Assembly (NCBI GenBank): GCA_003342815.1
Contig: PTEX01000412.1
Span: 245,543-309,542, forward strand
Source: Eudromia elegans
Lineage: Eukaryota; Chordata; Aves; Tinamiformes; Tinamidae
Direction: 5' to 3'
Length of the DNA stretch: 64,000 bases
In this document: piece after piece, positions 40,322-47,827 of the stretch
Layout: each line of letters begins with the position of its first letter
How positions within the stretch are numbered: the first letter of the stretch is position 1
Program-made: the position numbers and the translations under genes
Notes under the pieces: generated by a model
The model's input: the letters and a program-made list of their open reading frames with translations, nothing else
Databases searched by the model: none
What the model was told of the DNA's origin: nothing

Positions 40322-43300
40322 ATGGCTTTCATCCGGCGCCTTTTCCGCTCGGGAGCGGAGAAGCCGAAGCCGCCACGGGGCCGTGTGCGCGTCCGGCGCG
40401 ACGCGGACCCCGAGGACACCTGGCTGCTGCTGGGCGAGCTGGGCGATGGCGCCTTCGGCAAGGTCTTCAAGGTAAGAGCGCCGGAGCCCGCTGGCTGGCA
40501 CCCTCCGGGAATTCCCCGCGGGATTCCGCTTGGGAAGCAGAGCCTCCTGGCACCGCGCGCCACCGGAGCGGTCGCCCGCCTCCATCGCCAGCCTCCGGTT
40601 CTTGTTGTCACCGAAACGGGGCTGCGGCGGCAGGAAACGCGCCGTGCCGGGGGCCCGCGGCGCCCCGACCGCAGGCACCTTCCGGCGTGCAGAGCCCTGG
40701 TGCTGCCGGCGTGCTCGTGGCGCCTGCCCGGGCCGCGCCGTGGTGGCTTGGGCTGCGTCGGGGACGTGACATCCCAAACTTCCCACCTGGTCTGCTGGGA
40801 GAGAGGGTCGTGGCGCGATGCGGAGCCTCCCGCTCTTGCCAGGCCCAGCACAGGGCGACGGGCGCGCTGGCGGCAGCCAAGGTGATCCGCGTGGCGAGTG
40901 AGGAGGAGCTGGAGGACCACGCGGTGGAGATCGACATCCTGGCCTGCTGCGACCACCCCAACGTCACCAAGCTGCTGGACGCGCTCTACTGGGACGGGCG
41001 GCTCTGGGTGAGCGCGGGCGCCGTGGGATGCGTGGATCGGGGCCCTCGTCTCCGGGCTTCCTCCCTTGGGATGGGGCAGGAGGGCGGTTCCTCCTCGGCT
41101 GCGCGTGCTGCTCCGTGCCGGAGCTCTCCTGAGCGCGGCTCTTTCCGCAGATCCTGGTGGAGTTTTGTGCAGGAGGGGCCGTGGATGCCGTGATCTTGGG
41201 TAAAGAAGCCCCTGTCCCGGGTCACGGTTGGGTCGGGGTCGGTGTCACCGTGGGGCTGGCCGCCACGTGTCGCGCGGGCTCTCGCGGCAGAGCTGGAGAG
41301 AGGGCTGAGCGAGGAGCAGATCCGGGCGGCCTGCAAGCAGCTGCTGCTGGCGCTGCAGTACCTGCACGGCTGCAGGATCATCCACCGGGACGTGAAGGCT
41401 GGGAACGTCCTGCTCACCCCGGCCGGGGACGTCAAGCTGGGTGAGCTGCCCCTTGCTCCAGCCGAGCGACATGAGGGGCCGAGCGAGGCCGGTTGTAGAG
41501 TTCCTAAATTCTGCTTTCTACGAACCAGCTGATTTTGGTGTCTCGGCCAAGAACTCCAGCACTTTGCAGCGTCGAGCGTCCTTTATTGGCACGCCGTACT
41601 GGTAGGTCCGGGATGGGAATCCCGGGGAAAGGCGGGATGTGGCTGCGGGGTGATGAGGGAAAGCAGCAGTGTTCGGCTCTAGGTGGAGCTCCTGCTGCCC
41701 CTCTCCTGGATGCCCAAGGTGGCTACTGCAGCAGAAGCATCTCCTTGAGGAACCAGCCCTTTCCTCCTTCCCTTTCCCCAGGCAGCACCTTCTCTGGGAT
41801 GGGTCTCATCCATGGGCAGATGAGACCACCCATGGGATGATTGCCTGCTGGGCTGAGCCCTTCTGGAGAAGGGCTGGAGGACTTGGGGGTCAGATCTCCC
41901 CTCTGCTGCCCATAGGGCTGTTCTGGGGATGGGCTCTCCCTGGGCTGCCCGCGCCCATTCCGTGTCTCCCGTGCGCAGGATGGCCCCCGAGGTGGTGCAG
42001 TGTGAGACGTCCAAGGAGAACCCCTACAGCTACAAGGCTGACATCTGGTCCCTGGGCATCACACTCATCGAGATGGCCGAGATGGAGCCTCCCCACCACG
42101 ACCTCAACCCTCTGAGGGTGCTGTTCAAGATCACCAAGTCCCAGCCACCCACCCTACGTCACCCCAAGAGGTGGTGAGTCCCCTGGCCGACAGCAGCACC
42201 CTGGGCACAGCGACTCCAGAGCTCCGAGCCCCAAGGGGACGCCCGGATGCCACCTTCACAGTGGACTTTCCCGCAGGTCTGGAGACTTCAAGGACTTCCT
42301 GAGGAAATGCTTGGAGAAGAGCCCCGAGGCTCGGTGGTCGGCCAGCCAGCTCCTGCAGGTGGGTAGTGACACGGGTGGCCTCCCGCAGCCTCCATCCCTG
42401 CGACAGCAGCACCCAATGGTGCGTGTCCCCAGCGGTGGCCCTGCCCACCTCCCTTGCTTGCGCACAGCATCCCTTCGTGGCAGACGTCCACGACAAGAGG
42501 CCGCTCAGGGAGCTGGTGGCCGAGGCCCGGGCCGATGTGCTGGAGGAGTTTGAAGAGGAAGAAGAGGAGGAAGAGCAGTGGGCCCAGCTGGTGAGTAGTA
42601 GCCCACGTGTTGTGTGGGTGCAAGACCGAAGGAAGTGTCCCAGGGACAGGCTGCTCCAGCAGGAGAGGTCTCAGAGCGGAGACTAACCTCGCTCTGCTCT
42701 CCATCCCGCAGCCCGGGCAGGAGAATGGAGGCTCCTCTTGCCTCCCGTCCCCCAGAGAGCAGGAGAGCTCCACGAGCACCACGGATGGAGTTGCAGGAGA
42801 GGGGCAAGGAGCAGCTGTGGCAGTGGCTGTCGTCACCCCGCGCAAGGAGGACACGCAGGAGCCCATGGAGCAGGCTGGGAGGCTCTGCGAGGGGTGGGAT
42901 ACCCATCCCAGCATCCAAGAGGGGTCGGGACAGAGCGTCCCTCAGCTGAGGTCCAAGAAAATGTCCAACTTGCTGAAGCAAGCGAGGAGGAAATCCGCAC
43001 CTGTCCTGGTGGGCTCCGTGAGGCTCCCTCCGAAAAGACCATCTGAATTCCTGAAGCTGATGAGGCGCAGGTCATTTATCGGCAGGTTCAAATCCCATGA
43101 AGTTGCCAGCAAGAAGCACAGGGTGGACGGAGGGGAGCCAAGTGAGGAGCAGCTCCCTGCGCCCCTTCTAAGTGGACCAGGGCGGGTGGCACTGGATGCC
43201 CTCCAAGGGACGCAAGCCCAGGGAGAAGGAGCTAAAGGACGTCAAGAGGAGCCCAAGGCTCTGGAGATCCCCTCTAGGGTGGCAGAGCTCCTCCTGGGGA

Positions 43301-46300: not shown

Positions 46301-47827
46301 GAAGGACATGGAGAGGAGGATGAAGGAGCTGAAGGGCAACAAGGCAGAGGTGAGAGACTCGAGTTGTGGCTCCTCGAGGGCTGATGAGCTGCACCTGGGG
46401 CTGGTCTCCATTGGGCTTTGGTGTGATGGTCTCAACCTTTCCCACCACAGGAGCAGCGGTTCCTGCAGCAGCAGCAGGAGGAGCTGAACGCAGCCTTGCA
46501 GAGACTCGTCCAGGAGCACAAGAAGAAGGTGGCAGCCGTTGACTGGGAATGCGTCGGCAAGATCCACAGCCTCCGCAGAGGTAGAGCGGGCTGCAGGAGC
46601 TCCGGAGCGGGGAGGAAGAGGATGGTGGCACCTTGGAGCAAGAGTGGTGGGGGGCACCAGAGGTGGGTCTGGAGGCCAGCCCCACCGGTGGTGGGAGGTG
46701 GCTGAGCTGCACGGGGCTGTCCTGCCGGCAGCGCGCGAGTGCACGGTGTGGAGCATGGAGCAAGGACACCTGCAGAAGAAGTACCAGCTCTTCAGGCAGC
46801 AGGTGAAGGAGCAGCACGCGCTGCAGCGGCAGCAGCTCCGCAAGCGCCACGAGAAGGTAAGGTGGGAGCTGCTGCTGCTCCCGCCCGGCACCTGGTCCAG
46901 GCCCTGCCTCCCGTGCCGACTCTCCTTGCAGGAGACGGAGCGGATGAGCCGTTTCCATCACTTCTTGCTGGAGGAGCTCCGGAGCCAGCAGGCCCAGGAG
47001 CAGGCGCAGCTGCAGAAAAGCCAGCGCTGTGATGCCAAGGCCCGCCTGGCCTTCTTCAAGGGCAACCTGAAGAGCCAGGAAGTCAATGGGGGCGAGCAGA
47101 GAGAGCGAGCCAAGCAGGTACCACTTTCTCCAGGACCCTCCAGGTTGCCCAGCTTGAAATACCAGGTTGGCCCAGGGCCAAGGCTGGTGGAAACCAGATG
47201 GGTGCAGAAAGACGGGCTGTCTGCTGTGAGCAGCAGCTTGGGGCGACAGATGGAGAAAAACCTACGTGAAGGTCAAGGTTAGGAGATGCCTCTGCTCCGC
47301 GGGGAGGGTGACGCAGGTTGTCCCCACGGCAGTTCCTGCAGCGGGAGGACAAGCGGCAGCGAGCGGAGACGCAGCAGCAGCAGGAGCAGCAGGCGCAGCA
47401 GCTGCAGCAGCTGAAGGAGCAGCAGGCCCAGAGCCTGGGGGAGCTGGAGCAGATGCAGGTACCAGAGCTGGAGGGGACGTTTGCCACATCCCTCCTCAAG
47501 TACCTCCCTTCCCACCTGCCCCACGCCTCCTCGCAGAGGGAGAAGATGCGGCTCCTGGCGGAGCAGGAGCGGAGGCGGCTGGCGTGGCTGGACGGCGAGC
47601 ACGCCATGGAGCTCAGCGAGTGGAGGCAGCGGCTCGCGGCCCGCAAGGAGGTGAGTCGCCCTGGGGGGGACCCTGCGGGCAGCCGGGAGGGACATGGCAG
47701 CTCTGTCCTTTCCTTCCAGCTGCTGGAGGAGGAGCTGGCCAGCTTCCTGCCCGAGCAGCGGGGGAGAGGGATGCGCAGCCCCCGCAGCAGCAGCAGGATG
47801 TCCCGCTTCTTCCACCTCCCCTCCTGA
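40322..47827 (+). CDS. SLK/STK10-like STE20-family (GCK-V) Ser/Thr kinase, apparently intact
   Basis: Eighteen exons give about 1446 aa: 40322-40471, 40843-41007, 41151-41199, 41291-41440, 41529-41601, 41979-42173, 42277-42358, 42468-42590, 42712-44850, 45394-45515, 45923-46046, 46170-46349, 46451-46580, 46732-46856, 46932-47117, 47333-47458, 47537-47650, 47720-47827. The kinase domain has the glycine loop GDGAFG, Lys63, HRD Asp155, DFG Asp173 and [16 protein letters not shown], so it should be active. A huge acidic exon 9 forms the linker. [18 protein letters not shown] and [21 protein letters not shown] then open the C-terminal coiled-coil (PKK/AKH) region shared with SLK and STK10. In mammals these kinases regulate ezrin-type proteins, cell shape and mitosis. 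Human SLK and STK10 lie on chromosomes 10 and 5, so this is a third copy. It is convergent with NCAPH. Confidence 0.88.

Follow-up and report, generated by a model that had tools for sequence, protein, structure and literature searches.

The window examined here, a stretch of 64,000 nucleotides from Eudromia elegans (C349:245543-309542; genome of 943,969,204 bases in 723 contigs), contains on its plus strand a gene for an intact protein kinase of the GCK-V (SLK/STK10) type, which will be referred to as the window kinase. Unless a contig is named, all positions given are those of the window. The gene, which was rebuilt from the sequence, consists of 18 exons spanning positions 40322-47827 (Table 1), and it is flanked by an ARID gene and by NCAPH, both recognized by Pfam (ARID and Cnd2 models) and both located on the minus strand. 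Joining of the exons yields 4341 nt, coding for 1446 amino acids followed by a stop codon, with zero internal stops or frameshifts, and all 17 introns have GT-AG ends. The splice sites of this gene also score above the background, the donors matching on average at 6.7 of 9 positions versus 4.3 over all GT of the region, and the acceptors having a pyrimidine count of 6.6 of 9 versus 3.7 over all AG. The largest exon (exon 9, 2139 nt) is free of in-frame stops, whereas 2000 Markov simulations contained 21.3 of them on average and 7 at the minimum, none being stop-free. The start of the gene lies in a candidate promoter, a CpG island in which the GC content was 0.68-0.79 and the observed/expected ratio of CpG 0.81-1.04 (six 300-base windows, starting at 40100-41100). 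The original prediction of 18 exons that join cleanly, in a kinase gene situated between ARID5A and NCAPH, was thus confirmed.

Family membership of the window kinase

The encoded protein is matched in Pfam by the Pkinase model (2.3e-64) and, over the whole length of the model, by PKK (PF12474; 2.9e-30, with the best stretch at residues 1245-1384). The solved structures closest to its kinase domain are those of human SLK (487 bits) and STK10 (466 bits), followed by STK4 (266 bits); for the tail, no solved structure was found at E 0.001. The lysine, HRD, DFG and APE motifs are all present, as are T183 and S189 of the activation segment, which are phosphosites in SLK. Additionally, the window kinase retains 77 of the 79 sites that are invariant across four human Ste20 kinases, the exceptions being a Y to F and an M to L change; the matching tests gave 77 of 78 for SLK and 77 of 80 for STK10. 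Hence, both the full set of GCK-V catalytic residues and the SLK/STK10-type coiled-coil tail that had been predicted for this gene were observed. Its Ste20-type domain nearest to SLK and STK10, its C-terminal PKK/coiled-coil tail and its exon-intron layout (see below) assign it to the GCK-V group (SLK, STK10 and Slik). A search of the prokaryote library NCBIfam with a region of 403 aa that begins at the end of the kinase domain and extends into the central region gave no match, and none of 41 pattern matches in viral contigs was a relative.

SLK and STK10 in the same genome

A search of the genome with the kinase domain gave at least 115 exon-level matches (125 of the 268 candidates were scored). 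Besides the window, two contigs were prominent, C213 and C709, each of which contained several well-matching exons with identities of up to 78% and 71%, respectively; other contigs gave weaker matches, which were taken for other kinases and were not identified singly. From 150 kb of sequence retrieved around each of these two loci, both genes were assembled, and they were compared with human sequences, those of the kinase domains, but not those of the tails, being derived from PDB chains. The gene on C213 (1,614,823-1,655,395, plus strand) is SLK, with 93.5% identity to human SLK in the kinase domain and tail alike, and that on C709 (1,300,200-1,345,749, minus strand) is STK10, with 90.8% identity to human STK10 in the kinase domain and 81.5% in the tail. 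As this genome has a separate SLK and a separate STK10, the window gene is a third gene. It is not the ortholog of SLK, a distinct SLK being present on C213, nor is it the ortholog of STK10, which is likewise distinct on C709; a grouping with STK10 is also opposed by the approximately unbiased (AU) test, although the Shimodaira-Hasegawa (SH) test does not reject it. The window kinase shares with SLK the PKK tail, T183 and S189, but it is found at a different locus, and its kinase domain is only 71.6% identical to that of SLK from the same genome and also 71.6% identical to that of human SLK. The tail is 49.9% identical to that of the genome's SLK (198 of 397 residues), and the identity to STK10 is 68.4% in the kinase domain and 44.4% in the tail. 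In contrast, SLK and STK10 of this genome are 79.0% identical to each other in the kinase domain and 63.3% in the tail.

Exon-intron organization and the missing exon 13

Both the SLK and the STK10 gene of this genome are divided into 19 exons, with the same intron phases and with equal lengths of exons 2-7 and 10-18. When exon 13 of these genes is left out, the intron phases of the window kinase agree with those of both in order for all 17 introns, the comparison for the introns that flank exon 9 being limited to order and phase, as these sit in sequence that does not align. Thirteen of the 18 exons are equal in length to their SLK counterparts (SLK exons 1-7, 11, 12, 14, 15, 17 and 18) and 12 to those of STK10, and the lengths of exons 2-7 (165, 49, 150, 73, 195 and 82 nt) are identical in all three genes. 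The presence of 17 introns with conserved phases rules out a retrocopy. The genes differ greatly in the central exon, which in SLK measures 1389 nt and in STK10 546 nt, compared with 2139 nt in the window kinase. Further, exon 13 (93 nt), which is present in both SLK and STK10, is absent from the window kinase, and inspection by eye of the three plus-strand frames of the 101-base intron 12 revealed no sequence resembling it. According to the available part of a published account (PMC9132324), exon 13 of human SLK is alternatively spliced and is skipped in some cells. This human exon would correspond to the 93-nt exon 13 of the bird SLK. Should this correspondence hold, the short form has become fixed in the window gene, and its lack of the exon offers a natural experiment for a segment whose inclusion varies in human SLK.

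Phylogenetic placement and rate of change

Phylogenetic analyses were carried out using the kinase domain and a concatenated dataset consisting of the kinase domain and the tail, in which the outgroups had no letters for the tail. The AU and SH values below are given in the order: kinase domain with the LG model, concatenated set with LG, and concatenated set with JTT. In the maximum likelihood (ML) trees the window kinase branched outside a clade of SLK and STK10, and the support for this arrangement by the SH-like approximate likelihood ratio test and bootstrap was 85.8/79 for the kinase domain and 90.9/83 for the concatenated set. The AU test rejected the grouping of the window kinase with this genome's SLK (0.0047, 0.00097, 0.0016), with this genome's STK10 (1.0e-4, 1.7e-8, 4.6e-5) and with the STK10 pair (0.014, 0.011, 0.007). 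These AU results support an origin for the window kinase that probably predates the split between birds and mammals. The only grouping that was also rejected by the SH test was that with the STK10 of this genome. With five models applied to a smaller set of five sequences, the three possible trees were ranked in the same order. In 100 alignments of 260 sites simulated under a tree in which the window kinase is sister to SLK (gamma shape 1.0), the true tree was best in 79, the tree with the window kinase outside in 11 and that with the window kinase and STK10 together in 10; drift in the placement caused by long branches is thus possible but not usual. The window kinase shares more sites with SLK than with STK10, both in the tail (52 versus 26) and in the kinase domain (27 versus 17), but this excess was not used for its placement because the branch of STK10 is longer.

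Compared with this genome's STK10, the numbers of nonsynonymous (dN) and synonymous (dS) substitutions per site were 0.233 and 1.07 for the kinase domain and 0.495 and 1.54 for the tail; in the comparison with this genome's SLK the silent sites were saturated. Amino acid change has remained below silent change over the whole history of the window kinase, and the kinase domain is better kept than the tail.

Origin of the window gene and alternative explanations

In this genome SLK and STK10 lie in corresponding blocks of genes. Based upon queries with human sequences, NEURL1 (1.308-1.355 Mb) and SH3PXD2A (1.367-1.510 Mb) were found together with SLK on C213, and NEURL1B (1.208-1.214 Mb) and SH3PXD2B (1.223-1.259 Mb) together with STK10 on C709, where the A/B and 1/1B names are assigned from similarity and from the linked kinase. 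The NEURL1-SH3PXD2A-SLK and NEURL1B-SH3PXD2B-STK10 blocks indicate that a block duplication gave rise to SLK and STK10. In the available part of Wotton 2008 (PMC2446394), four such paralogons are described. The first, third and fourth are carried by chicken chromosomes 6, 13 and 22, respectively, and the fourth probably also includes Prom2-Kcnip3, which in human is located on the long arm of chromosome 2. Judging by chromosome, SLK (human 10) would be part of the first block and STK10 (human 5) of the third, and the window gene would be the member of a further block, a member that human has lost. The pairing of blocks 1 and 4 in the same source predicts that the window gene should be the sister of SLK, a position that our tree permits but does not prefer; both placements, outside SLK and STK10 or sister to SLK, fit with two rounds of whole-genome duplication. 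We consider the window gene likely to represent a third GCK-V kinase of vertebrates, an ohnolog that arose by the early-vertebrate genome duplications and has been retained in this bird.

A number of observations weigh against this interpretation. The position of the window kinase outside both of its sisters is only moderately supported, and its grouping with the SLK pair is not rejected by the AU test (0.27, 0.23, 0.14). The SH test, which is more conservative, rejects neither a copy of this genome's SLK (0.077, 0.106, 0.102) nor a grouping with the STK10 pair (0.47, 0.51, 0.42). The window kinase evolves faster than SLK and STK10, and the gene is known here from genome sequence alone. Additionally, neither NEURL nor SH3PXD2 was matched on the 368,035 bases of contig C349, and SLK, STK10 and NEURL are not mentioned in the available part of the main text of Wotton 2008 (PMC2446394).

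The absence of a NEURL/SH3PXD2 companion from C349, together with the best tree, in which the window gene lies outside SLK and STK10, would also be expected if it were an ancient paralog produced by a separate duplication, not genome-wide, at or before the base of vertebrates. We regard such an origin as unlikely, as the neighbours of the window gene, which are of human chromosome 2 type, fit the partner region of the duplicated blocks as far as these are described in the available text (PMC2446394), if the window is rightly placed there. In a weak test for a Neuralized gene of the NEURL3 type within the window, neither a motif search by regular expression (Neuralized and RING) nor Pfam searches of 10 chosen open reading frames revealed one. 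Elsewhere in the genome, off the contig of the window, a sequence with weak similarity to NEURL (34%, E 4.2e-8) was observed at C310:150578-150850, and it may represent NEURL3 or a different gene of the Neuralized type.

The faster evolution of the window kinase and its divergent tail (less similar to SLK than the tails of SLK and STK10 are to each other) could also point to a pseudogene so young that its sequence is still intact although it is silent or newly freed from constraint. However, no lesion is present across its 1446 codons and 17 introns, the invariant kinase sites are kept, and a CpG island covers its start, which make this explanation very improbable. Least probable of all, and only slightly behind the latter, is a fast-diverged, lineage-specific duplicate of avian SLK or STK10, for which one may cite the intron phases common to both genes, the closer similarity of the window kinase to SLK than to STK10 and the failure of the SH test alone to reject an SLK copy, but which is contradicted by the far greater similarity of this genome's SLK than of the window kinase to human SLK and by the rejection of copies of both genes by the AU test. 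The prediction of a third SLK/STK10-family kinase is therefore upheld by the SLK and STK10 genes located elsewhere and by the AU results, and the possibility of a recent copy within either clade is rejected for both by AU but, in the case of SLK, not by SH.

Predicted function and significance

The architecture of the window kinase resembles that published for the GCK-V kinase Slik of Drosophila, which, in the available part of its description (PMC12000455), comprises a kinase domain, a non-conserved middle and a conserved coiled-coil C-terminus; the C-terminal end of Slik sculpts the membrane, and its kinase acts via Moesin. Based upon its sequence features, the window protein is probably an active kinase, and it most likely works in the manner of SLK and STK10. 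In such a mechanism two molecules would be held together through their coiled-coil tails and anchored to the cell cortex or membrane, where their kinase domains would be activated by trans-phosphorylation at T183/S189. The active enzyme would then phosphorylate ezrin/radixin/moesin (ERM)-type or other substrates of the cortical cytoskeleton; catalytic activity, dimerisation, substrates and expression are all predicted here. The better conservation of the kinase domain than of the tail leads us to expect an active kinase with a partly altered targeting, and a change in targeting or regulation is suggested by the absence of exon 13 together with the greater length of the central region and the faster change of the tail.

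Human GCK-V kinases are counted as two, SLK and STK10, in the available part of the EMBO J 2025 Slik paper (PMC12000455). The original prediction that this kinase was kept in birds and is absent from mammals is supported to the extent that it is present in one bird genome and that the published human count is two, the mammalian side having been checked for human only; a loss in mammals is predicted. A broader scenario, to which we give reasonable though lesser credence than to the ohnolog origin, is that early vertebrates possessed at least three GCK-V kinases, the third of which survives in birds as a fast-evolving, active enzyme without the exon-13 segment and with a targeting middle of its own, and has disappeared from the mammalian lineage, with the result that control of the cortical cytoskeleton in birds is split among three kinases instead of two. 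In human, studies of ERM proteins, of cell shape and of mitosis consider SLK and STK10 as the two GCK-V kinases. If birds do have a third, it would matter for knock-out and inhibitor studies in chicken cells, would provide an extra sister for sorting out the ancestral features of SLK and STK10, and would imply a gene loss on the human line.

A literature search by title and start of abstract, which was partial in coverage and had annotation databases outside its range, found no report of a third vertebrate SLK/STK10 gene, and the matches for "kinase 10-like" and similar terms included none with a bird in the title and one on gibel carp. The gene may already bear a database name, likely an automatic label such as "STK10-like". 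The results support its recognition as a new addition to a known family, viz. a third, old and intact kinase of the SLK/STK10 type.

Features of the window and neighbouring genes

The coordinates of the window kinase gene and of its nearest neighbours are summarized in Table 1.

Table 1. Positions of the window kinase gene, its parts and the genes that flank it
Feature	Position	Strand	Remarks
CpG island, promoter candidate	40100..41200	+	GC-rich; covers start codon and first exons
Window kinase gene, exons 1-18	40322..47827	+	Exon lengths (nt): 150, 165, 49, 150, 73, 195, 82, 123, 2139, 122, 124, 180, 130, 125, 186, 126, 114, 108
Exon 1: start codon and glycine loop	40322..40471	+	Length (150) equals SLK exon 1 of same genome
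Exons 2-8: remaining kinase domain, activation segment (T183, S189), APE	40843..42590	+	40843-41007, 41151-41199, 41291-41440, 41529-41601, 41979-42173, 42277-42358, 42468-42590
Exon 9: divergent central region of 713 aa	42712..44850	+	E/G/A-rich, basic stretch (by eye)
Exons 10-18: coiled-coil PKK tail and stop codon	45394..47827	+	45394-45515, 45923-46046, 46170-46349, 46451-46580, 46732-46856, 46932-47117, 47333-47458, 47537-47650, 47720-47827
Intron 12, 101 bases	46350..46450	+	Position of 93-nt exon 13 in SLK/STK10
ARID exon, upstream neighbour	34912..35136	-	Pfam ARID 1.3e-11; ARID5A in the original prediction
NCAPH exons (condensin complex subunit 2), downstream neighbour	49083..54325	-	Pfam Cnd2 at 49929-50186 and 54062-54325

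The Pfam match of the NCAPH exon at 49083-49394 was below the cutoff. By eye, this gene extends to about 57 kb, its last exon (57050-57319, minus strand) having no match in Pfam. An open frame at 56620-57024 (plus strand), apparently within an NCAPH intron, resembles by eye the end of the reverse-transcriptase reading frame of a CR1 retrotransposon, as would be in keeping with a bird or another sauropsid; it had no Pfam match, and a short pattern for the terminal repeat of avian CR1 gave 0 matches in the window. Beyond the window on the NCAPH side, within 10 kb of its end (C349:309543-319542), exons resembling a tachykinin receptor (TACR1 by eye) are present on the minus strand, a neighbour that decides nothing on block membership. 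On the other side of the kinase, an assembly gap of 109 N (31007-31115) separates the ARID gene from a CKAP2L-like frame (27517-28668, minus strand), which was named by eye and has no Pfam match. Further upstream, Pfam identified a gene for a PHO4 phosphate transporter, SLC20A1-like, at 11879-19650 on the plus strand. On human chromosome 2, the group of genes that includes SLC20A1 lies far from that of NCAPH and ARID5A; in the window, the SLC20A1-like gene, the ARID gene, the kinase and NCAPH are all located inside about 46 kb.

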